A stretch of 32,248 nt of DNA. It comes from Polaromonas sp. Lineage in GTDB: Bacteria > Pseudomonadota > Gammaproteobacteria > Burkholderiales > Burkholderiaceae_C. Positions 252 to 17,686 of the stretch are shown one piece after another. A program made the position numbers and the translations under genes. Under the pieces are notes generated by a model. It was not told the origin of the DNA and made no database searches. It saw only the letters and a list, made by a program, of their open reading frames with translations. Position 1 is the first letter of the stretch; each line of letters starts with the position of its first letter. The DNA lies in the NCBI RefSeq assembly GCF_012927415.1, contig NZ_JABBPF010000010.1, positions 1-32,248 of the forward strand, read 5' to 3'.

Positions 252-2510
252 ATGAGGAAACATTCATACGCGCAGCTGGCAATGCTGATGGCTTATTGCC
301 TGCCAGTCGCATTGGTCGGTTGCGCCACGCAGCCAGGCTTTTTACCCGCAGCGAAGAGCCCCGAGCTGGCAAGTCCTATCCTGCTGACAGCCCCCCCGGG
401 CGGGGACGGAACGCAGGACATGAAAAAAGATGCAAAAAAGGATGACGACAACCAGATGAAGATCACGCCGGGCACCGGCGTCTTCGTCAAACCTGCAGCA
501 GTCATCGCCGTTCCTTCGGGCGCCAAAGACATCTTGCTCAACTTCGAAGGTGCAGACCTGCGTGAGGTGGTGCGCGTGGCCATGGGCGACATGCTGCACG
601 AAAACTACACGATTGACCCCAAGGTCAACGGCACCGTGACCATCCACACCAGCCAGGCCGTCAGCCGGGCCGCTGTGCCTGCCATCCTTGAAACCGTGCT
701 GCGTATGAACGGCGCGGCCATGGTGCGTGAAAACGGCGTTTACAAGATCGCACCCATCGGCAACGCGCTGCGCGGTGCCACCACGCCCCAGGTCGGCAAC
801 CTGCAGCAGGGTTACAGCGTTCAGGTGGTGCAGCTGCAATTCATCTCATCGCGCGAAATGGCCAAGATCCTCGAACCCCTGGTGCCCGAAGGCAGCATCC
901 TGCGGGTCGATGAAACCCGAAATCTGCTGATCCTCGCCGGCGCCGAGGGTGAGATGCGCCACGCCCTTGAGACCATAAGTGTGTTCGACCTCGACTGGCT
1001 GGCCGGCATGTCGGTCGGCCTGTTCACCCTGAAAAGTGTGGATGTCAAAAGCGTCATGCCCGAAATTGAACTCCTCTTCGGCGACAAATCCAAGGGGCCG
1101 TTCGCCGGCATGCTGCGCGTCATTCCCATGGAGCGCATGAACGCCTTGCTCGTCGTCAGCCCACGGGCGCAATACCTGGAACAGGCGAAGATCTGGGTTG
1201 AACGGCTCGACCGCAACGGCGGCAAGAGCGGCACCCGCCTGCACGTTTACGCGGTACAAAACGGCAATGCCGAAAAGATCGCAGCGCTGCTCAGCCAGGT
1301 GATTGGCGGTAATTCTTCTTCCGGTTCGTCCAACCAGCCTATGGTAGCCCCCGGTCTGGCGGCAGCCACTCTGCAGACGGGCGGCGCTCCGGGTCAGGGT
1401 ACCAGTTCGCTTGGCGCTGCTGCGGGCGGCGCATCTGTCGGCGCTGCGCTTGGTGCCACACCAACAGCAACAGGCCCCGGCGTGGTCGCGGCCGGCACCG
1501 GCGAAGCGCTCGGTCTGGGCTCGGCCAGTACCATCAAGGTCATTGCCGACCGCGACAACAATGCCCTGCTGGTGATGGCCAACGGCGCTGAATACGAAAA
1601 AATCGAGGAAGCCATTAAAAAGCTCGACGTCGTGCCGCGCCAGGTGCTGGTCGAGGTCACCATTGCCGAGGTAACTCTCAACGGAGCGCTCAGCTATGGG
1701 CTTGAATGGTTCTTTAGCAGCGGCAATGTGAACGGCTCGCTGTTAAATTCCGGCGGTATTGGCGCGGGGCTTTCCACACCGACCGGATCGGTCTCGCCGC
1801 AACTGCCTTTCTCTGCTGTCTGGCGCGGCGCCGGCGGTAATATCAAGGCGGTGCTGAGCGCATTGGCGAAGACCACCAAGGTCAACGTGCTCTCGTCACC
1901 GCACATCATGGTGACAGACAACCAGGTGGCCAAAATCAACGTCGGTTCCAGCGTCCCGGTGCAGGGACAAAGCACCCTGACTGGCACCACCGCCAACACC
2001 GCCATCACCACTTCGGTCAACTACATTGACACCGGCGTTGTGCTTTCGGTGCGGCCGCACATCAACGCGGGCGGTTTGGTTACGCTTGAGGTCAGCCAGG
2101 AAGTCAGCGACGTGCAAATCGGTGTGACCACCACCGGCCTCAATTCTCCGACCATCAACAAGCGCTCCGCGCAAACCATTGTGGCCGTGCAGTCGGGTGA
2201 CACCATGGTGTTGGGCGGCCTGATCAAGGACGACAACGAAAACGGATCATCGGGTCTGCCCTTCCTGTCCGAGATCCCCGTGGTTGGCGCGCTTTTTGGC
2301 GCGAAGACCCAAACCAAGACACGTCGCGAGATGATCATCACCATCACACCGCGTGTAGTGAATGATTACCAGCAGGCCCGTGACGTCACCGCCGAGTTCC
2401 GCAAAAAACTCACCGGCATGCGCAAGCTGAACCCGGAATCAGGCGCCACCGTCAAAGAATCGGAAATCAGCGCCAACCCCTTCGAAATTGAAAAATCACC
2501 AGCACGCTAA
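252..2510 (+). CDS. gspD: Type II secretion system secretin GspD (lipoprotein form)
   Basis: Outer-membrane secretin that forms the channel for folded proteins leaving the periplasm. A short signal peptide ends in a lipobox, LVGC, with the lipidated Cys at residue 24, as in the Xanthomonas secretin XpsD. An N0 domain begins near residue 93 (LLNFEGADLREV), and N1 begins near 187 (VQVVQLQFISS). A Gly/Ser/Ala-rich insertion occupies roughly 350-427. The secretin core runs from about 463 (VLVEVTIAEV), through VPVQGQ (about 567) and SPTINKRSAQT, to VLGGLI and PFLSEIPVVGALFG, and ends in ITPRVV plus a short tail that may bind a pilotin. The length of 752 aa is normal for GspD. ATG 252 is chosen over TTG 249 because AAGGAA at 241-246 is well spaced for it. 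The domain order and lipobox make the family assignment secure; the system it serves is inferred. Confidence 0.93.
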   Translation: MRKHSYAQLAMLMAYCLPVALVGCATQPGFLPAAKSPELASPILLTAPPGGDGTQDMKKDAKKDDDNQMKITPGTGVFVKPAAVIAVPSGAKDILLNFEGADLREVVRVAMGDMLHENYTIDPKVNGTVTIHTSQAVSRAAVPAILETVLRMNGAAMVRENGVYKIAPIGNALRGATTPQVGNLQQGYSVQVVQLQFISSREMAKILEPLVPEGSILRVDETRNLLILAGAEGEMRHALETISVFDLDWLAGMSVGLFTLKSVDVKSVMPEIELLFGDKSKGPFAGMLRVIPMERMNALLVVSPRAQYLEQAKIWVERLDRNGGKSGTRLHVYAVQNGNAEKIAALLSQVIGGNSSSGSSNQPMVAPGLAAATLQTGGAPGQGTSSLGAAAGGASVGAALGATPTATGPGVVAAGTGEALGLGSASTIKVIADRDNNALLVMANGAEYEKIEEAIKKLDVVPRQVLVEVTIAEVTLNGALSYGLEWFFSSGNVNGSLLNSGGIGAGLSTPTGSVSPQLPFSAVWRGAGGNIKAVLSALAKTTKVNVLSSPHIMVTDNQVAKINVGSSVPVQGQSTLTGTTANTAITTSVNYIDTGVVLSVRPHINAGGLVTLEVSQEVSDVQIGVTTTGLNSPTINKRSAQTIVAVQSGDTMVLGGLIKDDNENGSSGLPFLSEIPVVGALFGAKTQTKTRREMIITITPRVVNDYQQARDVTAEFRKKLTGMRKLNPESGATVKESEISANPFEIEKSPAR

Positions 2511-2780
2511 TTTTTTCGGCTACACATGTTTCATACGCGTTACTGGGGGCGTAAAAGCCGGGCCAAAATCTGCGATTTCCCAGCCTCCTTCACAGTAAGG
2601 AAGGGGGACTGAAGTGCGGCCACATCCGGTAACGTAAAGAGATTAGGTATCTGCGACCACTGGTTTAATCTGTTCGTGTTTCCGGAATTTAGTGATTGGT
2701 AACAACGCACTTTTTTCCGGCGACAAACGTCTTTTTTTTGTCTGAAATTATTTTAATTTTGCCAAGATTGGAAACGTAAC
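2511..2780 (+). promoter_or_regulatory. Conserved promoter/leader region of secreted paralogue 1
   Basis: Gene-free 270 bp between gspD and the first paralogue. It carries the blocks shared with the two other paralogue leaders: block I GCTACACATGTTTCAT (2519-2534), block II GGTAACGTAAAGA (2628-2640) and block III ATTTAGT (2687-2693). A T-rich stretch ending in GGAAACG just before the ATG is block IV, nearly the same as in the third leader. Block I lies only 8 bp after the gspD stop, so this gene has its own promoter region. At the place where the third leader has a clear -10 box, only a weak CACAGT (2591-2596) is visible. AGATTA and TAATCT after block II can pair. Function is unknown. Confidence 0.55.
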
Positions 2781-3716
2781 ATGAAAACCACTTTTCAAAG
2801 AACCCTGGTCGCCGCTTCTGTCGGCGCAGCGATGCTCGCTGCTGTCGGCACTGCCAGCGCCAACTCGCTGCTATTCCCTTTCTTCACCACGACCAGCGGC
2901 GCCCAAAGCGCGCTCAGCATCTCCAGCAACACCAACGCCGTCGGTGCTCCGGAAACGCTGCATTACGTTTACAACTACGGTGACGCCTGTACCCACTACG
3001 ACGGCAATGGCAAGGTCACTGCCAACGACCTGATGCAGCATTCCATCGCCTCACCGTCCGCCGGCGGTTATGGCAAGGCCGCTGGCGCTGACGGCTCCAC
3101 GCCGTTTTACTTTCCCCTGGCCAACAGCTTCGGTTTTCTGGTGGTGTCTAACAAGAGCAGCCCCGGCCCCGACGTCATCACCGGCGACATGGCCATTGTT
3201 GACCCGTCTACCGGCCTGGTCGTGTCGTATGCGGGCATCAGCAACGGTTTGGCGACCAACGTTGCTGCCAACGAAGGCAATTACGCCGCCATCACCGACA
3301 ACAACTTCAACCTGACCACCTATGGCTCGGGCCTGGTCGACACGTCCTGGTATGGCGTCGTGGTGGGCGACATGTCCCCAGCCATCATTGCCAGCGCCAA
3401 CTGGACCGGCGCATCCACCCTGGGCAACAATGGCGTGGTGTATGACAACGACGAGCAGGCTTTCTCAGGGGTGAAGACAAAGGTGCTGAGCTGCGCCGGC
3501 AAATTCGCCACTGCTGACCTCCTGACCAGCGCCCAGCAAGCGGCAGTGGGGCCGAACGGCGGTCTGATTCACGCGACCGGTACCCCTGTTGCGCCTTCTG
3601 CCACTGTGCTGGCCAGCACCGGCTTGATCCTGAACAAGATCCAGGTGGTCAAGGCTGCTGTGGGCGCGCCTTTCGCTGGTAAGCAGTTTCTGCACCGCGA
3701 AGCCAAGTCTTTCTGA
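2781..3716 (+). CDS. Secreted protein of unknown function, paralogue 1 of 3
   Basis: A 311-aa exported protein. It has a classical signal peptide (Lys near the start, hydrophobic core, cleavage after ASA near residue 27) and the mature protein starts NSLLFPFF. It shares with the next two genes the motifs HYVYNYG, ACTHYD, HSIASP, GFLVVS, AIVDP, GLVVSY, ANWTG, NGGL and a final FLHRE. The mature part has exactly two Cys (in ACTHYD and SCAG), the same two as in both paralogues, so one disulphide is likely. There is no membrane segment, lipobox or PEP-CTERM tail. I do not recognise the family. The position just after gspD makes it a candidate substrate of the type II system, which is inference. 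It is the most diverged of the three. Confidence 0.85.
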   Translation: MKTTFQRTLVAASVGAAMLAAVGTASANSLLFPFFTTTSGAQSALSISSNTNAVGAPETLHYVYNYGDACTHYDGNGKVTANDLMQHSIASPSAGGYGKAAGADGSTPFYFPLANSFGFLVVSNKSSPGPDVITGDMAIVDPSTGLVVSYAGISNGLATNVAANEGNYAAITDNNFNLTTYGSGLVDTSWYGVVVGDMSPAIIASANWTGASTLGNNGVVYDNDEQAFSGVKTKVLSCAGKFATADLLTSAQQAAVGPNGGLIHATGTPVAPSATVLASTGLILNKIQVVKAAVGAPFAGKQFLHREAKSF

Positions 3717-3785
3717 TCAAACTATCGTTTTCTCGCCGACCGGGCTTTCTTTAAAGACGGCGGGTTAGGGAATGGTTGGAAAAGA

Positions 3786-3818
3786 CCAAGAAAAAGCCCG
3801 GCAAGGGCTTTTTCTTGG
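3786..3818 (+). terminator. Intrinsic terminator after paralogue 1
   Basis: A perfect 14-bp inverted repeat, with arms at 3786-3799 and 3805-3818 and a 5-base loop. The stem contains AAAAAGCCC/GGGCTTTTT, so T-runs occur on both strands and it could work in either direction. The rest of 3717-3937 shows no gene or other clear signal. Confidence 0.85.
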
Positions 3819-3937
3819 TTCAGCTCGCGCCAATGGCGGCTTTTGCTACTGAGGCATTGCAAAAAAACTGCGCGATTCATGGCGTCTGCATAATTACGCA
3901 CCGTTAGGGTGAGCTTCTGGATAAAACAGAGTTTCTT

Positions 3938-4202
3938 TTTTGCTACTGATGTTGCATTGAAGACGAACCCTCGCAACAGTCGCACTGAATCGTTGTTGCT
4001 GCCCACCATGCACTTGATACAGGGGCATGCATCGAAGGGCGGGTACGACCGGTAACGTAAAGAAGCCATTTGCTCACGCAGGCGAATTGGTCGGACTCGT
4101 AACTTGTGAAATTTAGTTGGTGGATGTAACATCATGCGTGAACGGTAATAACCACCCTCTTTTTTTGCATGAACTCTTTTTGGACACAATAGGAAACGCA
4201 AC
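3938..4202 (+). promoter_or_regulatory. Conserved promoter/leader region of secreted paralogue 2
   Basis: Carries block I GCTACTGATGTTGCAT (3942-3957), block II GGTAACGTAAAGA (4051-4063) and block III ATTTAGT (4111-4117). Block I to block II is 109 bp, as in paralogue 1, and block II to block III is 60 bp. A possible promoter sits where the third leader has its strong one: TTGTTG (3993-3998) and TGATAC (4015-4020), spacer 16. It is weaker than the paralogue 3 promoter. TACGA (4044-4048) and TCGTA (4097-4101) could pair around block II. The leader ends in GGAAACGCAAC directly before the ATG, as in the other copies. The minus-strand reading frame across this region is not credible as a gene. 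Confidence 0.55.
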
Positions 4203-5156
4203 ATGAAAACTTCTTTTCAAAAGACTCTGATCGCCGCTTCTATTGGCGTGGCGATGTTCGCCGCTGTTAGCACCGCCAGCGCCAACTCGCTGCTGTTCCC
4301 TTACTTCACGACCAATTCCGGCGCACAAAGCGTGCTGAGCCTGTCGAACACTGCTACTGGTACCGGTACTGGTGTTGTACCTGTGCACTATGTGTACAAC
4401 TACGGCACGGCTTGCACCCACTACGATGCAAACGGCTCTTTGACCGCCAATGACATCTTGTCGCACTCCATCGCTTCACCTGCTGCTGGCGGTTTCGGCC
4501 TGGCAGTCGGCACTGACAAGTCCATTCCTGTTTACTTCCCATTGGCTAATCAATCCGGCTTTCTGGTGGTTTCCAGCAAGAACACGACATCGACAACCGC
4601 TCTGCGCGGCAGCATGGCCATTGTTGACCCATCAAGCGGCCTGGTGGTTTCCTACCCTGGCATCGACAATGCCCTTGATACCAGCGCCACTGAAGGCAAC
4701 TTCAGTGCTATCAAGGATCTGAACTTCCCATTGACCAGTCTCCCCGGCGCGGTGGTTGCCACTTCTTGGTACGCCGTGGTTGTCGGTGACATGTCTACTG
4801 CTATCACCAACGGTGCAAACTGGACTGGCGCGGTGTCTTTCAGCAATAACGGTAACGTCTACAACAACGACGAAGTGGCCTACTCTGGCACGGCCACCAA
4901 AACCATCACCTGCTCTGGTGCTCTTGTTCCGACCGATCTGGCTACCTCTGCCCAAGCATCGGCTGTTGGTTCCAATGGTGGTCTGATCAACTCAGTCGGC
5001 ACGGTTGTCGCTGGTACTCCCGCTACCGGTGTTGTGTTGATGAAGCTGCAATACGTTCAGCCAGCAGTGGGTGGCGTGTTTGGTGGCAAACAGTTCTTGC
5101 ACCGCGAAGGTGGTACGCCGACTCCAGCGCCGGTGCTACTGGCAAATATGGGATAA
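4203..5156 (+). CDS. Secreted protein of unknown function, paralogue 2 of 3
   Basis: A 317-aa exported protein with the same plan as its neighbours: signal peptide cleaved after ASA, mature start NSLLFPYF, ACTHYD and TCSG as the only two Cys sites, ANWTG, NGGL and FLHRE near the end. It differs by a C-terminal extension of about 15 residues after FLHRE, rich in Gly, Thr and Pro. The first 107 bp of the gene match paralogue 3 with a single mismatch, although the rest has diverged, which points to recent duplication or gene conversion of the 5' end. Codons end in T more often than in paralogue 1. Function is not recognised; export is clear from the sequence. It has its own leader and terminator, so it is probably a single-gene transcript. 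Confidence 0.85.
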   Translation: MKTSFQKTLIAASIGVAMFAAVSTASANSLLFPYFTTNSGAQSVLSLSNTATGTGTGVVPVHYVYNYGTACTHYDANGSLTANDILSHSIASPAAGGFGLAVGTDKSIPVYFPLANQSGFLVVSSKNTTSTTALRGSMAIVDPSSGLVVSYPGIDNALDTSATEGNFSAIKDLNFPLTSLPGAVVATSWYAVVVGDMSTAITNGANWTGAVSFSNNGNVYNNDEVAYSGTATKTITCSGALVPTDLATSAQASAVGSNGGLINSVGTVVAGTPATGVVLMKLQYVQPAVGGVFGGKQFLHREGGTPTPAPVLLANMG

Positions 5157-5225
5157 CAAGCAAGGTGTAACTTATTCCCGCTCTGACGCGCTTGCAGGCG
5201 GTAGTGAATGTCGTCAACAACTCTC

Positions 5226-5251
5226 AAAAGCCCCGTTCTCGGGGCTTTTTT
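5226..5251 (+). terminator. Intrinsic terminator after paralogue 2
   Basis: Perfect 10-bp stem AAAAGCCCCG/CGGGGCTTTT (5226-5235 and 5240-5249) with loop TTCT, followed by more T. It lies 70 bp after the stop codon. The following 5252-5525 holds no gene I can support. Confidence 0.9.
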
Positions 5252-5400
5252 CGTTGGTCACAACGATGCGGGCCGGTTTAAGTCGACATCGCCATGGCGA
5301 GCTTGCGCTTGCAAGCGTTGCCGGGCACTTTCACCTCGGCGAACCGTCGGTGTCCAGAGTCATCAGGTAGCTGTGGGCATTGAATCCTGAAAATATCGGT

Positions 5401-5419
5401 GGCAGGGCAGGGCAGGGCA
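5401..5419. repeat. Short tandem repeat, GGCAG units
   Basis: Three GGCAG units plus a partial fourth in the gap between paralogues 2 and 3. It lies upstream of the shared leader blocks. No function is evident; such 5-bp tracts can vary in copy number by slippage. Confidence 0.6.
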
Positions 5420-5528
5420 TGTGATGGATGGCGAGGCCAGCCAGCAATTCAGCAGCAGAGTTAAAGAGGCGGAAGTGAACGCCAACACCTTGCAAAATTT
5501 GAAAATTGCAATCCGGCCAAGTTTTTCT

Positions 5529-5799
5529 GCTGTCGATGTTGCAATTAACGCACACAGTGTCGAAAGTCAGGCTAAATACCTTTGACCTGATAGGTCTTCC
5601 TTTATATAGTGAGGCCATGAGTCAGGGAGCTGGCACAGCTGGTAACGTAAAAGAAGTCACTTTTCTTACGTAGTCGGCGAAGACTGCCCATGTCTCATGG
5701 ATTTAGTTAGGACAAGTAATACAGTTTGCTCTGGCGGAAACGTCTTTGTATTTTTTGTATGAAATTATTTTATTTTGGCCAAAATAGGAAAAACGCAAC
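5529..5799 (+). promoter_or_regulatory. Conserved promoter/leader region of secreted paralogue 3
   Basis: Block I GCTGTCGATGTTGCAA (5529-5544), block II GGTAACGTAAAAGA (5641-5654, one extra A) and block III ATTTAGT (5701-5707). Block spacing is 112 and 60 bp, matching the other two copies. If the promoter at 5582-5610 is real, blocks II and III are in the transcript, near +25 and +85, and the untranslated leader is about 180 nt. CCATGAG (5614-5620) and CTCATGG (5694-5700) pair perfectly and would close a domain just before block III. Inside it AGCTG-GCA-CAGCT forms a small hairpin, and ACGTAA of block II can pair with TTACGT. This looks like a structured leader RNA, but no known riboswitch class was recognised. 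Confidence 0.55.
5582..5610 (+). promoter_or_regulatory. Sigma-70 type promoter of paralogue 3
   Basis: TTGACC (5582-5587), 17-base spacer, TATAGT (5605-5610), so a start near 5617 is expected. Block I lies 37 bp upstream of the -35, a place where an activator could bind. This is the best promoter match among the three paralogues. Confidence 0.6.
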
Positions 5800-6729
5800 A
5801 TGAAAACTTCTTTTCAAAAGACTCTGATCGCCGCTTCTGTTGGCGTGGCGATGTTCGCCGCTGTTAGCACCGCCAGCGCCAACTCGCTGCTGTTCCCTTA
5901 CTTCACCACCGCCACCGGCGCACAAAGCGTCTTGAGCCTGTCCAACACCGGTGCCGCTCCAGCTACCCAAGCTCTGCACTATGTGTACAACTACGGCCCG
6001 GCTTGCACCCACTACGATGCTAACGGTTCCCTGACCGCCAATGACATTCTGAGCCACTCCATCGCTTCCCCTGCTGCTGGCGGTTTCGGCAAGGTTGTCG
6101 GCAGCGACACGTCGACTCCTGTCTACTTCCCGCTGGCTGGCCAAACCGGCTTCCTGGTCGTGTCCAGCAAGTCCTTCGCTGCCAACGACGCGCTGCGCGG
6201 CAGCATGGCTATTGTTGATCCGACCAGCGGCTTGGTCGTGTCTTACCCAGGTATCGACAATGCAGCTGCAACCAACGGCGCCTTCGGTGCCAATGGTGAA
6301 GGTGACTTCTCTGGCATCACTGATCTGAACTTCCCCCTGACCGCCCTGCCTGGTGGCATCGTGAACACCAGCTGGTTCGGCGTTATCGTCGGCAACATGG
6401 GCCCAGTTATCACCGCCGGTGCGAACTGGACCGGTGGTGTGACATTCACCAACAACGGCAACATCTACAACAACGACGAAGTCGCTTACTCCGGTACAGC
6501 CGGCAAGACCATCACCTGCTCTGGCACGCTCGCGACTTCTGACCTGGCGACCTCTGCCCAGTTGGCTGCCGTCGGCGGCAATGGCGGTCTGGTCAAGGTT
6601 ACGGGAACACCAGTTCCGGCTACCAACGCCACCGGTGTTGTGCTGATGAAGATGCAAACGGTTCTGCCAGCCGTTGGCGCGCCTTTCGCCGGCAAGATGT
6701 TCCTGCACCGCGAACAAGCTGGCCTGTAA
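5800..6729 (+). CDS. Secreted protein of unknown function, paralogue 3 of 3
   Basis: A 309-aa exported protein with the family features: signal peptide with an ASA cleavage site near residue 27, mature start NSLLFPYF, HYVYNYG, ACTHYD, HSIASP, GFLVVS, AIVDP, ANWTG, TCSG, NGGL, and FLHRE five residues from the end. The two Cys are conserved. Codon choice leans to CTG, GGC, AAC and TTC. Together with the best promoter, a perfect terminator and a good leader, this suggests it is the most highly expressed copy; expression level is inference. It shares its first 107 bp almost exactly with paralogue 2. The role is unknown. A surface or secreted structural protein is possible, and I see no enzyme motif. 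Confidence 0.87.
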   Translation: MKTSFQKTLIAASVGVAMFAAVSTASANSLLFPYFTTATGAQSVLSLSNTGAAPATQALHYVYNYGPACTHYDANGSLTANDILSHSIASPAAGGFGKVVGSDTSTPVYFPLAGQTGFLVVSSKSFAANDALRGSMAIVDPTSGLVVSYPGIDNAAATNGAFGANGEGDFSGITDLNFPLTALPGGIVNTSWFGVIVGNMGPVITAGANWTGGVTFTNNGNIYNNDEVAYSGTAGKTITCSGTLATSDLATSAQLAAVGGNGGLVKVTGTPVPATNATGVVLMKMQTVLPAVGAPFAGKMFLHREQAGL

Positions 6730-6796
6730 TCCAGCCCTGGTTTTTGTTGCAAGCCAAGCCAACCTCGCGGTTGGCAAAGCTTGCAGGAAAACAACA

Positions 6797-6825
6797 AAAG
6801 GCCCCGCTTGCGGGGCCTTTTTTTT
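6797..6825 (+). terminator. Intrinsic terminator after paralogue 3
   Basis: Perfect 10-bp stem AAAGGCCCCG/CGGGGCCTTT (6797-6806 and 6811-6820), loop CTTG, followed by a T-run to 6825. Confidence 0.93.
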
Positions 6826-6871
6826 ATCTGGCATTTTGCCGGCGCGCTGTGCGTTTGCGACCTGAGGGCGA

Positions 6872-6880
6872 TGCTAAACT
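6872..6880 (+). promoter_or_regulatory. Candidate extended -10 promoter of Asp-box lipoprotein 1
   Basis: TGCTAAACT lies 36 bp before the ATG. The paralogous gene downstream has TGCTAGACT at almost the same distance (35 bp), while the sequence around it differs. That conservation is the main support. No good -35 box at standard spacing is visible here. Confidence 0.4.
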
Positions 6881-6915
6881 GCTAGGTTAATTTCAATTCG
6901 GGAGACATCGGGAAC

Positions 6916-8673
6916 ATGAAACGCTATTTGTTCATATGGGCTTTACTGACGTCGCTCGTTTCGGCGGGTGGCTGCGCTTCAATTGGCGCCGAATCAGGCA
7001 ACAAGGTGCTGGCGCAAGTGGATGACGCTGCCACCGGTACCTTGCAAAACCGGCCAGCCATCGTCGAACTCAATGGCAAGCCGGCCATTCTTTATGCTGC
7101 CAAGGACGACCGCGTGGCCCTGCAGATTGGTGGGCAGCGACAACTGCTGGACGAAACCGCGCGCGTGCGTGGGGGCAATCATTTCCAGCTGCATCGCCAA
7201 GACCAGAATCTGCAGGCACTCTGGTGGTCCCACGATGATGGTAAAAACATTTATTTCACGTCGTCGGCCGACGAGGGCAAGAGTTTTAACGCGGTCAGCA
7301 TGGTCAACGACGAGCATGGCGTGCTTCCACCGTATTCCCTGACCCAGGGGCCGCAAGGCGTGGTGGGTGTCACCTACCAGGACGAGCGCGCAACCGGCTA
7401 CCAGGCCTATTTCAACCGCTCCACCGACAACGGCCGTTCCTGGGCGCGTCCCGACCAGCGGCTGGACACCCCGCCCAAGGGGCGGACCAGCGACGTGCAT
7501 GAGGCGCAAAGCGTGCAGTCGGGCACGGTCTGGGTCAGCGCCTGGACGGACAATACGCCAGGCACGGGCCAAGCCAGCTACCGCATTGTCAGCCGCCGCA
7601 GTGTGGACGAGGGCCAGAGCTGGAGCGCGCCAGAGGTGCTTTACAGCGCCGACCACCAGATATCGTCGCTGATGATTCGCGCCCAGAGCGGCAACATGGT
7701 CATCGCCGCCGATGAGCTGAACCGCGGCATCATTGCCCTGGGTTCGCAGGACGAGGGCCGCAGTTGGCGCAGCGCGGGCGTGTTGGCCGGCACCGAGGGT
7801 GCGAGCAACAGCGGTATCGACATGGCGGTGACTGGTGGCCGCGCGCACCTGGTCTGGATGCAGGACCGCAAGGACGAGAAAACCCGCATCATGCGCGCCA
7901 GCCTGGACGTCGCCCAGTCCAAGTGGCTGGGCGCGGTTCAAAGGCTGGATCTGAAGTCGCATGAGAACACGCGCTCCACGTCGCCAGTCATCCTGGCAAC
8001 GCCGCAGGGCTCGGTGCTGGCGAGCTGGGTCGACTTCCGCGACATTCGTCCCAACGTCTACCTGTCTTCATCGTCTGATCAGGGGCAGGCGTGGTCCGCA
8101 CCGCAAGCCCTGCTCAAGCCCGGCGAGGTGTCGGCGGGCTGGCCCCAGTTGCTGCCCTGGCGCGATCAGGTCGCCATCGGTTATGAGCTTTACCCGACTG
8201 ACCGTCCCGCAGACGGCAAGTTCGTCGTCAGGCTGCTGGAAGCCGCCGATAGCGCCAAGGGCCTGGCCGGTCTGCCCGCACCCTCGGCGCTCAGCGAGGC
8301 CGACCGCAAGGCGCGGCTGGAGCAACGGGTAAAAACGATGTGGGATCAGCGTGTGGCCGGCAATTATGAGCCCACCTACGACATGTTCGACTTCGCCTAC
8401 AAGGCCGCCACACCGAAGAAATATTATGTGGACAGCGTGGGCGTCATCAGCTATTTGTCTTATGCGGTAGGCGACATCGCCATCGCCGGCAACGAGGCGA
8501 GCGTGAAAATGAAGCTCAGGTACGAGGTCAAGCCGACGGTCCTGCCGTCAACGGGCAAAAAAATTACTCTTCCGGCTGCCGATGTTGAGTCTCCCCCTAC
8601 CTGGGTGTGGGTTGCGAATGACTGGTACATGGTGTACTCGCCTTCTTTTGAGCCGCCGCAGCTTAAATATTAA
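6916..8673 (+). CDS. Asp-box (BNR) repeat lipoprotein with C-terminal domain, copy 1
   Basis: A 585-aa predicted lipoprotein. The signal peptide ends in SAGGC with Cys at residue 20. Five Asp-box motifs of the S-x-D-x-G-x-(S/A)-(W/F) type occur near residues 117 (SADEGKSF), 169 (STDNGRSW), 229 (SVDEGQSW), 277 (SQDEGRSW) and 386 (SSDQGQAW). They mark a beta-propeller of the sialidase-like fold. I see no clear RIP motif or other catalytic set, so binding is as likely as hydrolysis. Residues from about 465 to the end form a separate domain (GNYEPTYDMFDFAYK, later WVWVANDWYMVYSPS) that resembles small NTF2-like domains; this is a tentative reading. It has its own terminator, so the gene is likely monocistronic. 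The sequence is closely similar to the next gene along its whole length. Confidence 0.8.
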   Translation: MKRYLFIWALLTSLVSAGGCASIGAESGNKVLAQVDDAATGTLQNRPAIVELNGKPAILYAAKDDRVALQIGGQRQLLDETARVRGGNHFQLHRQDQNLQALWWSHDDGKNIYFTSSADEGKSFNAVSMVNDEHGVLPPYSLTQGPQGVVGVTYQDERATGYQAYFNRSTDNGRSWARPDQRLDTPPKGRTSDVHEAQSVQSGTVWVSAWTDNTPGTGQASYRIVSRRSVDEGQSWSAPEVLYSADHQISSLMIRAQSGNMVIAADELNRGIIALGSQDEGRSWRSAGVLAGTEGASNSGIDMAVTGGRAHLVWMQDRKDEKTRIMRASLDVAQSKWLGAVQRLDLKSHENTRSTSPVILATPQGSVLASWVDFRDIRPNVYLSSSSDQGQAWSAPQALLKPGEVSAGWPQLLPWRDQVAIGYELYPTDRPADGKFVVRLLEAADSAKGLAGLPAPSALSEADRKARLEQRVKTMWDQRVAGNYEPTYDMFDFAYKAATPKKYYVDSVGVISYLSYAVGDIAIAGNEASVKMKLRYEVKPTVLPSTGKKITLPAADVESPPTWVWVANDWYMVYSPSFEPPQLKY

Positions 8674-13370: not shown

Positions 13371-13470
13371 CTTGCCGTATCGCCTGAGGCGCAAGGTCGG
13401 CAAGCGTTGCTGCAATGGCGATTCGCAGTTTTTCCTTGATTCAAGCCTGGCAAGAGGCGGCAACTCCTCA

Positions 13471-13479
13471 TGGGATAAT
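13471..13479 (+). promoter_or_regulatory. Candidate extended -10 promoter for the rfb genes
   Basis: TGGGATAAT (13471-13479) is an extended -10 of the TGn-GATAAT type, 71 bp before the rfbB ATG. No good -35 box is present, which extended -10 promoters can tolerate. The rest of 13371-13549 shows nothing else. Confidence 0.4.
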
Positions 13480-13549
13480 TTACAACGCATCATTTTCGTG
13501 TGGTTCGGAGGGTCCGGCCTTCCGCAGCGCGCGCAACCCAAGGAGTTTC

Positions 13550-14620
13550 ATGATTCTGGTGACTGGCGGGGCCGGCTTTATCGGTGCCAATTTTGTTCTG
13601 GACTGGCTGGCAAGCGGGGAGGAGCCGGTGCTCACGCTGGACAAGCTGACCTATGCGGGGAATCTTGAAAACCTGGCGTCTTTGCAAGGCGATAGCCGCC
13701 ACACCTTTGAGCAGGGTGATATCGGCGATGCGGAACTGCTGACGCGCCTGCTTGCGCAGCACCAGCCGCGCGCGGTCGTCAACTTCGCAGCCGAGTCGCA
13801 TGTGGACCGTTCGATTCTTGGCCCGGACGACTTTATCCAGACGAACATTGTCGGAACGTTTCAGCTGCTTGAGGCGGTGCGCAAGCACTGGGGTGGGCTT
13901 TCGGGTCAGGCGCAGGCGGAGTTTCGTTTTCTGCATGTGTCCACCGATGAGGTCTATGGTTCGCTTTGCGCCACCGAACCGGCGTTTACCGAGACGCATC
14001 GCTACGAGCCGAACAGCCCTTACTCGGCCAGCAAGGCCGCCAGCGACCACCTGGTGCGCGCTTACCACCACACCTATGGCCTGCCGGTGCTGACCACCAA
14101 TTGCTCCAACAACTACGGGCCTTACCATTTCCCTGAAAAACTCATCCCGCTGCTGATCGTCAACGCGCTTGCAGGCAAGGACTTGCCGGTGTACGGCGAC
14201 GGCATGCAGGTGCGCGACTGGCTGTACGTGAAGGACCATTGCAGCGCCATTCGCCGCGTGCTTGAGGCCGGCCGCCTGGGCGAGGTCTACAACGTCGGGG
14301 GCTGGAACGAAAAGCCCAATATCGAGATCGTGCACACCGTGTGCGCCCTGCTTGACGAGCTGCGTCCGCGAACGGATGGTGTCGGCTACCAGTCGCAAAT
14401 CACCTTTGTCAAAGACCGGCCCGGCCATGACCGGCGTTATGCCATCGATGCGCGCAAGCTTGAAAAAGAACTCGGTTGGAAGCCAGCCGAAACCTTTGAC
14501 TCGGGCATCCGCAAGACGGTGCAGTGGTATCTGGACCACCCCGAATGGGTCGCCCATGTGCAGAGCGGCGCTTATCGGGACTGGGTGCAGACGCAGTATG
14601 AGGCTTCGCCCATTGTTTGA
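13550..14620 (+). CDS. rfbB: dTDP-glucose 4,6-dehydratase (RfbB/RmlB)
   Basis: Second enzyme of dTDP-L-rhamnose synthesis: converts dTDP-glucose to dTDP-4-keto-6-deoxyglucose using bound NAD. It is a short-chain dehydrogenase-type protein with the NAD loop GGAGFIG near the start, [15 protein letters not shown] (Thr and acidic residue of the active site) and catalytic [10 protein letters not shown] (Y-x3-K). Further RmlB marks are [18 protein letters not shown] and [10 protein letters not shown]. Length 356 aa, normal. The start at 13550 follows AAGGAG (13540-13545) and gives the standard [12 protein letters not shown] beginning; the frame is open 135 bp further upstream but has no support there. 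Cytoplasmic. The other three pathway genes follow, but two broken toxin-antitoxin loci interrupt them. Confidence 0.96.
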
Positions 14621-14664
14621 ATTGAGTGTGATGTGCCAAAGTGTTATCACGTCAATGGATTTGT

Positions 14665-14943
14665 ATGACTACGACGGCCCAACTTTTTATGAGCTGCCGC
14701 AGCCATGCCATCCGTCTGCCGGCCAAATTGCGTCTGGATGTCAGAGCAGTTCGTATTGAGCGGATTGGCAGCGAGGCGATTCACCACTACGCCACCATTC
14801 GTGTGGCGCCGGGGCGGGCAGGGCAACCCATAGCCGGCATGGATCTGCTGATTGCTGCCCATGCCGTGACCGAGAAATCGGTGGTGGTGACTAACAATGC
14901 CCGTGAATTCCTCCGTGTCCCCGGCTAGGCTGTGAAAGAGTGG
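14665..14943 (+). pseudogene. vapBC remnant: VapB start fused in frame to VapC end
   Basis: ATG 14665 opens a frame whose first 30 residues look like a VapB antitoxin (MTTTAQLFMS, then RSHAIRLPAKLRLD, compare GRSQAVRLPKxFRF). It continues directly into the C-terminal half of a VapC PIN-domain toxin: HYATIRV, AGQPIAGMDLLIAAHAV, VVVTNNAREFLRVPG. The first half of VapC with its first catalytic Asp is missing, so an internal deletion joined the two genes. TAG at 14926-14928 replaces the usual Leu after VPG. The codons after it still read AVKEW, matching the usual VapC ending, so this stop is a later mutation. It is inactive as a toxin. It sits between rfbB and rfbD. Confidence 0.7.
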
Positions 14944-14954
14944 AGTCTTGAATC

Positions 14955-15830
14955 ATGAAAATCCTGCTATTCGGCAAAAACGGCCAGCTTGGCTGGGAAC
15001 TGCAACGCAGCCTGGCGCCCCTCGGCGAACTGGTCGCGTTGGACCGGCACAGCCTTGAGCTGTGCGGTGACCTGAGCAATCTTCAAGGGCTGGCAGAAAC
15101 GGTTCAACGCGTGCGTCCGGATGTGATCGTCAATGCCGCAGCCCACACGGCGGTGGACAAGGCAGAGAGCGAGCCCGAACTGGCGCGCACACTGAACGCA
15201 ATGGCGCCCGGCGTGCTGGCGCAAGAGGCGGACAAACTGAATGCCTGGCTGGTGCATTATTCGACCGACTACGTGTTTGATGGCAGCGGCAGCACGCCGT
15301 GGCTTGAAACCGATGCGCCGGCGCCGCTCAGCGTTTATGGCCGGACCAAGCTGGAGGGCGAGCAGCTGATCAAGGCCACCTGCATCAAACACCTGATTTT
15401 TCGCACCAGCTGGGTCTATGCTGCGCGTGGTGGAAATTTTGCCAAGACCATGCTGCGCCTGGCGCAGGAACGTGAAAGTCTGTCTGTGATTGATGACCAG
15501 TTCGGCGCGCCGACCGGCGCCGAACTGCTGGCCGATGTGAGCGCCCATGCGATTCGCCAGGTCGCAGGCCTCTACCACCTGGCTGCAACGGGTGAAACCA
15601 CCTGGAACTGGTACGCAAAACACGTTCTGGTCCAGGCAAAACGGGCACGACCAGCTATTAAAATAATAGCAAATGAAGTGAAGGCCGTGGCCAGCAGTGC
15701 TTTCCCGACGGCCGCAACGCGCCCGCTCAACTCCCGACTCAACAGCGCCAGGCTGCAACTGACCTTTGGCTTGAGTCTGCCGCCCTGGCAGCAGGGCGTG
15801 GACCGCATGCTGGCGGAGGTGTTGGCATAA
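14955..15830 (+). CDS. rfbD: dTDP-4-dehydrorhamnose reductase (RfbD/RmlD)
   Basis: Last step of dTDP-L-rhamnose synthesis: NAD(P)H-dependent reduction of dTDP-4-keto-rhamnose. Visible marks are the nucleotide-binding loop GKNGQLG near the start, DVIVNAAAHTAVDKAE, HYSTDYVFDG, catalytic YGRTKLEGE (Y-x3-K), RTSWVY, DQFGAPTGAELLAD, and AFPTAATRPLNSRL near the end. 291 aa, normal length. GGAG at 14942-14945 supports the start. A perfect GCTATTA-AAA-TAATAGC palindrome (15654-15670) lies inside the gene and encodes part of PAIKIIA, in a region of RmlD that varies in length. The frame is intact, so the protein is probably active. In this locus it comes before rfbA, with a broken vapBC in between. Confidence 0.95.
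   Translation: MKILLFGKNGQLGWELQRSLAPLGELVALDRHSLELCGDLSNLQGLAETVQRVRPDVIVNAAAHTAVDKAESEPELARTLNAMAPGVLAQEADKLNAWLVHYSTDYVFDGSGSTPWLETDAPAPLSVYGRTKLEGEQLIKATCIKHLIFRTSWVYAARGGNFAKTMLRLAQERESLSVIDDQFGAPTGAELLADVSAHAIRQVAGLYHLAATGETTWNWYAKHVLVQAKRARPAIKIIANEVKAVASSAFPTAATRPLNSRLNSARLQLTFGLSLPPWQQGVDRMLAEVLA
15654..15670. repeat. Short palindromic repeat (GCTAT/ATAGC family) inside rfbD
   Basis: GCTATTA-AAA-TAATAGC, a perfect 7-bp stem. Related copies occur at 10742-10760, 27736-27758 and 29640-29656, with a weak one at 10962-10979. Two of the copies are inside coding sequence and keep the frame. Confidence 0.65.
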
Positions 15831-15878
15831 AATATGTTGGTCATTGATGCCTTTTTTTGATGCTCAACAGGAAACTCC

Positions 15879-16202
15879 ATGCGCACCACACTGACGCTCG
15901 ATGACGAATTGCTGGCGTAGGCGCAGCAAATCAGTGGCTTGACCGAAAGAGGCCAATTGATCCGCGAGGCCTGACTGGCGCCGGAGGATGGGCAGCTGCG
16001 GATGCAGCCGCTTTGGAGCGGGAAGGTGGCTCGCGAAAATCTGCGTGCGCGCGCGGAAGTCCTGAGCCTGCTGCAGGCGATTCCAGCCAGCCCGGTGGCC
16101 ACGGCCGCGGAAGTGCTGTTTTTCATGGACCAGCAGGCTTGGTTGGGGCGGGGCATTGGCTATGTCGGCGTCCCTCCGCTGAGCTCCGCCTGGTTTATAT
16201 AG
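15879..16202 (+). pseudogene. vapBC remnant 2: VapB with two stops, joined to a mutated VapC
   Basis: From ATG 15879 the frame reads MRTTLTLDDELLA, stop (TAG 15918), AQQISGLTERGQLIREA, stop (TGA 15972). This is the usual start of a VapB antitoxin of the MRTTLTLDDxLLxxA type. In the same frame there follows a VapC PIN-domain remnant: EDGQLRMQPLWSGKV, ENLRARAEVLSLLQAIP, SPVATAAEVLFFM, GRGIGYVGVPPLSS. In this toxin family the matching places are HPFVxGEL and GRGIGYVDxHLL. The catalytic Glu has become Lys and the catalytic Asp has become Gly. The antitoxin end and toxin start are deleted. It lies between rfbD and rfbA and is a different module from the one at 14665. Confidence 0.75.
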
Positions 16203-16241
16203 AAGTGATGAAAGTGAGACATTGAATTGAAGACGAACACC

Positions 16242-17132
16242 ATGACCCAACGCAAAGGCATCATCCTTGCAGGCGGCTCCGGCACGCGGCTGCACCCGGC
16301 CACCCTGGCCATGAGCAAGCAACTGCTGCCGGTCTACGACAAGCCGATGATTTATTACCCGCTCAGCGCGCTGATGCTGGCGGGCATTCGCGACATCCTG
16401 CTCATCAGCACACCGCAGGACACGCCGCGCTTTCAGCAACTGCTGGGCGATGGAAGCCAATGGGGACTGAACCTGCAGTACGCGGTGCAGGCCAGCCCGG
16501 ACGGTTTGGCGCAAGCCTTCATCATTGGCGAGAGCTTTGTCGGCAACAACCCCAGCGCGCTGGTGCTGGGCGACAACATCTTTTATGGCCATGACCTGCA
16601 AAAGCTGCTGGCAGGGGCTGATGTCCAGAGCCATGGCGCCACCGTATTTGCCTACCATGTGCATGACCCTGAGCGCTATGGCGTGGTGGCGTTCAACGCC
16701 GAGGGGCGTGCCAGCAGCATAGAGGAAAAGCCTGCCAGGCCCAAAAGCAGCTACGCCGTCACCGGCCTGTATTTCTACGACCAGCAGGTGGTGGACATTG
16801 CCAAGGCCGTCAAGCCGAGCGCGCGCGGCGAGCTGGAAATAACGGCCGTCAACCAGGCCTACCTGGAGCGCGGCGAACTGAATGTCCAGATCATGCAGCG
16901 CGGCTACGCCTGGCTGGACACCGGCACGCATGACAGCCTGCTGCAGGCCAGTCAGTTCATCGCCACACTGGAGCACCGGCAGGGACTGAAGATTGCCTGC
17001 CCGGAAGAAATCGCCTGGCGCAGCGGCAGCATCAGCAGCGAGCAGCTTGAAAAGCTGGCACATCCGCTGGCCAAGAGTGGCTATGGCGAATACCTGCTCC
17101 GCCTGCTGCAGGAGCAGCAATCAATTCCTTGA
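16242..17132 (+). CDS. rfbA: Glucose-1-phosphate thymidylyltransferase (RfbA/RmlA)
   Basis: First enzyme of the pathway: joins dTTP and glucose-1-phosphate into dTDP-glucose. The nucleotide-binding signature [14 protein letters not shown] opens the protein. Then come [28 protein letters not shown] with the metal-binding Asp, [19 protein letters not shown], and [11 protein letters not shown]. 296 aa, the usual length. ATG 16242 is chosen over TTG 16227 because it gives the standard [12 protein letters not shown] start. Cytoplasmic; the enzyme class is usually inhibited by dTDP-rhamnose. The stop overlaps the region just before rfbC, so the two are surely co-transcribed. Confidence 0.96.
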
Positions 17133-17143
17133 GAATGAACGCC

Positions 17144-17686
17144 ATGAAAGTCATTCCCACCGCCATCCCTGACGTACTCATCATCGAACCCAAAGTGTTC
17201 GGCGACGAGCGCGGTTTTTTCTTTGAGAGCTTTAACAGCCTGGCCTTTTCCCAGGCAACCGGCTTGACGCACAACTTTGTGCAGGACAACCACAGCCGAT
17301 CAGGCCGGGGCGTGCTGCGCGGCCTGCACTATCAGTTCAAACAGCCGCAGGGAAAGCTGGTTCGCGTGGTACGCGGCGCGGTATTTGACGTAGCGGTGGA
17401 CATCCGTAAATCATCGCCCACCTTCGGGCAATGGGTGGGTGTCGAGCTGACTGAACAAAACCATCGCCAGCTTTGGGTGCCGCCAGGCTTGGCGCATGGC
17501 TTTCTGGTGACCAGCGAATCGGCAGATTTTCTGTATAAAACCACTGATTACTACGCGCCTGAACACGAGCGATGCCTGTTGTGGAACGATCCTGCCATTG
17601 GTATTGAGTGGCCGCTGGATAGCGAGCCGCAACTTTCGGCAAAAGACAAGGTTGGGCAACGCCTGGCCGATGCAGGGCTGCGTTGA
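17144..17686 (+). CDS. rfbC: dTDP-4-dehydrorhamnose 3,5-epimerase (RfbC/RmlC)
   Basis: Third step of dTDP-L-rhamnose synthesis: epimerises C3 and C5 of the 4-keto sugar. It is a small cupin protein of 180 aa. Marks are IPDVLIIEPKVFGDERGFF at the start, QDNHSRSGRGVLRGLHYQ with the catalytic His, GKLVRVVRGAVFDVAVDIR, WVPPGLAHGFLV, LYKTTDYYAPEHE and the WNDPAIGIEWP signature. The ATG at 17144 fits the usual beginning; ATG 17135 and TTG 17129 are in frame but too close to the rfbA stop for a good ribosome binding site. It completes the four-gene pathway. Confidence 0.95.
   Translation: MKVIPTAIPDVLIIEPKVFGDERGFFFESFNSLAFSQATGLTHNFVQDNHSRSGRGVLRGLHYQFKQPQGKLVRVVRGAVFDVAVDIRKSSPTFGQWVGVELTEQNHRQLWVPPGLAHGFLVTSESADFLYKTTDYYAPEHERCLLWNDPAIGIEWPLDSEPQLSAKDKVGQRLADAGLR

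Follow-up and report, generated by a model that had tools for sequence, protein, structure and literature searches.

Arrangement of the blocks

Three tandem genes for putative secreted proteins follow gspD in Polaromonas sp. (NCBI RefSeq assembly GCF_012927415.1), and the same three short blocks of sequence precede each of them at nearly fixed spacing. Do these blocks form a control element of a regulon, or do they have a more ordinary origin? We analyzed the first 32,248 nucleotides of contig NZ_JABBPF010000010.1 (hereafter, the window), and genome-wide counts were made in the source genome (3.65 Mb, 219 contigs). The paralogues W1 (2781–3716, 311 aa), W2 (4203–5156, 317 aa), and W3 (5800–6729, 309 aa) lie on the + strand, as do all features given below, and W2 and W1 are 75% and 62% identical to W3, respectively. 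The explanation that we favor, with a probability of about 0.6, is that the blocks are the surviving islands of one promoter and 5′ leader, which would have been spread by tandem duplication of the secreted-protein gene behind gspD.

W1, W2, and W3 have in common a ~260–270 bp promoter plus leader behind gspD. The first-pass annotation, which was made from the window alone, had described blocks I, II, and III upstream of all three genes, and all nine positions and all six distances were reproduced. Block I (GCTnnnnATGTTnCA) starts at 2519, 3942, and 5529 for W1, W2, and W3, respectively (2519–2533, GCTACACATGTTTCA; 3942–3956, GCTACTGATGTTGCA; 5529–5543, GCTGTCGATGTTGCA). Block II occupies 2628–2640, 4051–4063, and 5641–5654, and the W3 copy (GGTAACGTAAAAGA) contains one extra A. 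Block III (ATTTAGT) occupies 2687–2693 and 4111–4117 and starts at 5701 in W3, where it lies within ATTTAGTTAG (5701–5710). The distances from block I to block II are 109, 109, and 112 bp, and those from block II to block III are 59, 60, and 60 bp.

The blocks had also been said to look selected amid diverged sequence; block II is beyond chance, whereas block III alone is weak. In the three-row alignment A1, the three-way identity was 0.19 in the block I–II interval and 0.23 in the block II–III interval. Block II formed 13 consecutive identical columns when the 1-nt insertion in W3 was set aside, which is the longest run in the three leaders. Column shuffles of A1 (175 of the 181 columns; those with gaps in two of three rows were left out) reached a 13-column run in 0 of 20,000 cases and an 8-column run in 309 of 20,000. 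For block III, 22, 13, and 23 of 500 shuffles of the respective leaders gave all 7/7 letters. Partial conservation (three-way identity 0.39, longest run 7), which the first-pass annotation did not mention, extends from block III to the ATG.

Homologous loci in other genomes

A scan of the contig collection gave 48 stretches that matched the peptide pattern, one of which was confirmed. This locus, L004 (65% identity), belongs to a Rhodoferax metagenome-assembled genome, the sole named relative found with the same gene. Profile searches gave matches in 3 of 200 family genomes, 2 of 87 genus genomes, and 3 of 399 order genomes, with the source genome counted. The only close match beyond that genome was L011 in genome G233, with 73% identity to W3. 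The weak matches in genomes G152, G194, G587, and G566 are distant proteins, which lie near gspD in G152 and G194 and, in G587, near an open reading frame (ORF) taken for gspD by motif. In G152, two tandem copies lie behind a GspD with 80% identity over query residues 1–140. Many of the remaining loci (e.g., L001–L003, L005, L008, L010, L014, L015, L060, and L062–L068) repeat stretches of the window.

The leader regions of W3, L011, and L004 have in common TGTTGC-N10-CACAG, TTGACC-17-TATAGT (TACATT in L004), CATGnGTCAGGGAnCTGGC, the start-site sequence, ATTTnGTTAG, and the palindrome TATTTTGGCCAAAATA. A CCATG/CATGG-type repeat is present in W3 and L011 (CCATG/AATGG in L004). Homologues lacking the blocks, which the first-pass annotation had counted as evidence against its claim, were found in the case of block II. 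Blocks I and III are present in the single-copy loci L011 and L004 as GTGTTGCATT and ATTTCGTTAG, respectively, and block III is a variant of ATTTnGTTAG. Block II as written is absent from both leaders, with a partial copy (GTAACTAAAAG) in L004. At its place L011 has CCGGCAATAGTCAGC and L004 has CCGGCAGAGTAACTAAAAG, both with CCGGCA versus CCGGTA or CTGGTA in the window. The best block II matches in these leaders, 8/13 letters in L011 (429 of 500 shuffles) and 9/13 in L004 (163 of 500), are within chance. Judged by these alignments, block II is a cluster-specific stretch and block III is part of a conserved leader motif.

Upstream site and predicted promoter

Block I is the left half of TGTTGC-N10-CACAG. 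In W3, the full site (TGTTGCAATTAACGCACACAG, 5537–5557) precedes a sigma-70 type promoter, TTGACC-17-TATAGT (5582–5610), the hexamers of which match in 10/12 letters and the 17 bp spacer of which falls within the 16–18 bp criterion. The +1 position was assigned as the 7th base after the −10 hexamer in each promoter, and the predicted start of W3 is 5617, the A of an ATG. Scored against a consensus drawn from the same three sequences, the site has 16/16 letters in L011, 16/16 in L004, and 14/16 in W3 (0 of 500 shuffles each). In W1 and W2, which have lost the right half, the values are 11/16 (41 of 500 shuffles) and 12/16 (5 of 500), respectively.

The start of the site lies 45 bp from the −35 hexamer in W3 and L011, 55 bp in L004, and 44 bp in copy 2 of G152, which has a site 2 bp shorter, TTGGTC as its −35 hexamer, and a spacer of 16 bp. 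Relative to the predicted starts, the site centers are at −70, −70, −80, and −69, respectively, and on about the same face of the DNA in all four; L004 has exactly 10 extra bp between site and −35, i.e., approximately one helical turn. A class I activator would impose such periodicity. According to the passages of PMC6301791 that describe a CRP series, activation was strong at −61.5, −71.5/−72.5, and −81.5/−82.5, and there was none at −66.5.

The full site precedes the promoter in W3, L011, and L004, and a variant of it does so in G152 copy 2. These results agree with the earlier proposal that block I is an upstream activator site and indicate that it is probably part of one of the class I type. 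The promoter at 5582–5610 given in the first-pass annotation was retained for W3 and is conserved in L011 and L004, but, as that annotation did not mention, it has no recognizable counterpart in W1 and W2, whose best sigma-70 matches did not stand out from shuffles (191 and 193 of 200 scored at least as high, respectively). Because a recognizable sigma-70 match is lacking there, the layout seen in W3 cannot be assumed for W1 and W2. Since they keep the half site and blocks II and III and have no recognizable promoter, W1 and W2 are probably weaker, differently driven, or decaying copies. Terminator-like hairpins follow W1 (3786–3818, a perfect 14-bp hairpin) and W2 (5226–5249), both found by eye and not in the list from the terminator scan, and an intrinsic terminator-like hairpin from the scan follows W3 (6796–6821); should these be functional, at least W2 would require a promoter of its own. 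Inspection by eye against the consensus led us to drop sigma-54 promoters and integron attC sites.

In regards to copy 2 of G152, the tandem secreted-protein genes behind gspD (3335–5979 of locus L059) include a copy 1 whose frame is broken in the assembly and a copy 2 whose site and promoter resemble those of W3. Copy 2 encodes a protein of only weak similarity (E value 6.2e-7).

Predicted leader RNA

Blocks II and III had been placed in the leader RNA, and both lie within the predicted leader of W3. The leader RNA domain of W3 (5617–5700) is suggestive and has two alternative predicted folds. The first comprises hairpins at 5621–5634, 5638–5678 (the 5′ arm of which holds the start of block II), and 5688–5700; the second is a long helix in which 5617–5627 pairs with 5687–5698. 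The long helix, which runs between the 5′ end and the CATGG repeat, is preferred in W3 and L011, and separate hairpins in L004. Compared with dinucleotide shuffles, the 94–95 nt around and after the predicted start gave z-scores of −3.08 (W3), −2.68 (L011), and −2.38 (L004). RNAalifold gave a poor consensus of −6.11 kcal/mol with an unfavorable covariation term for five rows and −15.24 kcal/mol for three rows. In the model-fitted five-row alignment A9, 89.5% of the cells pair (6 of 500 shuffles), and four pairs show changes in both partners (2 of 500 shuffles; 0–1 in slid versions). These values are suggestive of RNA structure in W3-type leaders; for blocks II and III, such structure is hypothetical.

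The first-pass annotation had also pointed to the Rfam covariance models; with these, 0 families reached the gathering score in the window. A permissive search of 2400–6950 gave 9 weak matches downstream of or inside W3 and none in a leader.

An AUG stands exactly at the predicted start in W3 (5617–5673), L011 (1326), and L004 (3825), and opens, by eye, a short leaderless frame of 18, 16, and 10 codons, respectively, which is not conserved past codon 6 in L004. Conservation of a peptide encoded in the leader from the +1 ATG was rejected because the frame, inspected by eye, is broken in L004 and has two codons in G152. The 16-bp palindrome TATTTTGGCCAAAATA (5771–5786) lies just 5′ of the ribosome-binding site and is also found in L004 and in L058, the locus of L011.

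Specificity in the genomes

The block II 11-mer GGTAACGTAAA occurs at 3 places in the source genome, all in the cluster (reversed-pattern control, 1), and the 3 occurrences of the composite block pattern are at the same places. TGTTGC-N9/10-CACAG occurs once, and the 12-bp core of the palindrome occurs at one place (reversed control, 4 on each strand). The leader model R1, searched with Infernal's stricter filters in the 87 genus genomes, gave 3 places in the source genome and 1 in G233 at E values up to 1. A model built from the leaders of W3, L011, and L004 also found W2 (E 0.0052) and W1 (E 0.0081) in 123,395 bases, which comprised 19 of 61 sequences, the 61 being 60 loci and the window (those used were the window, L004, L007, L012, L013, L046–L057, L058, and L059).

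A regulon-specific element, as first suggested, is unsupported because the 11-mer and the leader model are confined to the loci of this gene, as is the site pattern. The same element was not found at several unlinked genes in the 87 genus genomes, where it occurs in its own cluster and at one locus in one other genome. By this distribution, the module belongs to this gene and not to a dispersed regulon. A small number of literature searches on the element returned unrelated or general-topic papers only, which does not imply its absence from print.

Alternative explanations

Several observations weigh against a promoter and leader spread by duplication. The comparison rests on two close homologues and one distant homologue. 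A conserved leader does not account for block II, because the homologues lack this most striking of the blocks. The G152 site, being 2 bp shorter, has only 9/16 letters of the full 21-bp consensus (481 of 500 shuffles). Of 200 shuffles of the region upstream of W3, 13 scored at least as high as its promoter, and the general promoter scan gave 2 promoter-like sites versus a shuffle average of 2.0, so the W3 promoter rests on its conservation. The reversed upstream-site pattern occurs twice, so its genome count of 1 is not beyond chance. At genome scale, R1 matches W2 and W1 at E values of only 0.15 and 0.24, respectively. The W1 and W2 leaders (103 and 108 nt) fold no better than shuffles (z-scores of +1.39 and −0.01), and the z-scores drop to −1.94 (W3), −2.24 (L011), and −2.24 (L004) when the leaders are trimmed to the predicted +1. 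The structure itself was used to fit A9, and the number of further pair types in A9 is unremarkable (318 of 500 shuffles). In 4 of 5 leaders, the foot of the block II hairpin does not exceed chance when considered by itself.

Another possibility is that blocks II and III have no function and that short stretches were homogenized through tandem duplication and gene conversion within the cluster. W2 and W3 are 99% identical over the initial 90 nt of their coding sequences (4203–4292 and 5800–5889, the signal peptide region), in a conversion-like manner, versus 60–87% in 90-nt windows from nt 91. This difference suggests local gene conversion at the start of the two coding regions, and identity between the copies alone is therefore no proof of selection. 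The synonymous divergence (dS) between the copies, however, was 0.73–1.64 (NG86; codons with a gap in either row were left out of the figures for dS and its ratio to nonsynonymous divergence, dN/dS), and neutral sequence therefore had time to drift. Moreover, block II is a 13-nt island amid 19–23% three-way identity, shorter than would be expected of a conversion tract. We consider functionless blocks unlikely.

According to a slightly less probable alternative, a protein or small RNA would act on block II, a young target specific to this cluster, and thereby set the expression of W1, W2, and W3 together; the block would have arisen after the duplication, or the single-copy relatives would have lost it. 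In favor of such a target, no identical run shared by the three leaders is longer than block II, which single-copy L011 lacks and L004 has only in part. The three sequences nevertheless come from one genome, the partner is hypothetical, and the promoters of W1 and W2 are unrecognized. In a more specific and quite improbable form, the 13-nt block II would have evolved or been kept after duplication so that one regulator, perhaps a small RNA or an RNA-binding protein acting on the leader, sets the dosage of the three paralogues jointly, and would have been lost in single-copy relatives; a related option is a leaderless mini-ORF at +1 that couples translation to leader folding. A single switch of blocks I–III for a gene set is very improbable: the fixed spacing and a block II beyond chance in all three paralogues would fit it, but the 11-mer and the composite pattern occur 3 times each, all in the cluster, the leader model appears only at these genes in the 87 genus genomes, and both close homologues are without block II as written.

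Neighboring genes and type II secretion

The gspD gene (249–2510; TIGR02517, E 9e-147; Pfam Secretin), which encodes the type II secretion secretin, lies directly 5′ of the cluster, and two BNR-repeat proteins (Pfam) are encoded 3′ of the paralogues. The linkage to gsp genes recurs: the genes are behind gspD in the window, L004, and L059, and also in L058, where ~1.9 kb of other ORFs separate them from it. No gene intervenes between gspD and the secreted gene or genes in L004 and L059, and a lipoprotein-like gene comes after them. In L058 (G233), a gsp-like run up to gspD precedes the other ORFs, beyond which lie the single-copy gene and one of the BNR type (all names except gspD were assigned by eye). 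Because the genes recur behind gspD, the paralogues, which carry a signal peptide judged by eye (W1 included), are probably cargo of the type II secretion system.

The segment between gspD and the secreted gene in L058 (8463–9165) holds two small genes, by eye a toxin–antitoxin pair with an XRE-type regulator, and is perhaps the former place of another paralogue. In six more Burkholderiales genomes (L007, L047, L049, L050, L056, and L012), a protein with a similar N-terminal region (e.g., ILLVPYFSTQGGNATLLNITNTD) is encoded behind gspD or a motif-assigned ORF, and in most of them a small lipoprotein-like gene precedes it. These proteins are perhaps members of a wider gspD-linked cargo family.

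No family was claimed for the paralogues in Pfam, NCBIfam, and PDB sequence searches. DUF5719 was rejected for W3 (E 0.018, below the family cut-off), and an AlphaFold model of W3 was discarded (mean predicted local distance difference test score, pLDDT, of 36.8). Elsewhere in the window, a dTDP-sugar (rfb-like) gene run occupies 13415–17686 and more polysaccharide genes lie downstream (named by eye from the translations).

Discussion

The promoter-plus-leader explanation implies the following mechanism for W3. A putative activator would bind TGTTGC-N10-CACAG at about −70 and recruit RNA polymerase to TTGACC-17-TATAGT in the class I manner. Transcription would begin near 5617 and yield a leader of ~183 nt, of which the first ~85 nt would tend to fold, with block II in the 5′ arm of the second of three hairpins and block III immediately 3′ of the third. 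The leader would most likely tune the stability or translation of a presumably abundant secreted protein.

This layout resembles class I activator-dependent sigma-70 promoters of the CRP-at-lac type, in which a site near −70 or −80, whole helical turns, and then the −35 and −10 hexamers are found; it differs in that the activator is putative. TGTTGC-N10-CACAG differs from the CRP consensus. Regarding the leader, titles in the reference list of PMC3997798 present the ompA and papA leaders as 5′-terminal stem-loop stabilizers. W3 and L011 are similar to such stabilizers, as far as these titles describe them, in having a long leader with predicted pairing from the predicted 5′ end, whereas L004 prefers separate hairpins and W1 and W2 fold no better than shuffles. 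By the criterion of a 5′ stem-loop, 3 of 5 leaders are better than shuffles; the start is a predicted one, and the three folds differ. The position in a leader RNA is shared with Rfam leader families and riboswitches, from which the leaders differ in that no family reached the gathering score.

The element looks like an ordinary kind of object, namely local gene control, and not like a new genome-wide switch. The three-block regulon is replaced by a proposed layout of an activator site, a promoter, and a possibly folded leader beside type II secretion genes. If block II has a function, it would offer a simple example of a duplicated gene set with a control element of its own. The recurring pairing of gspD with a secreted-protein gene provides cargo candidates for the type II secretion system.

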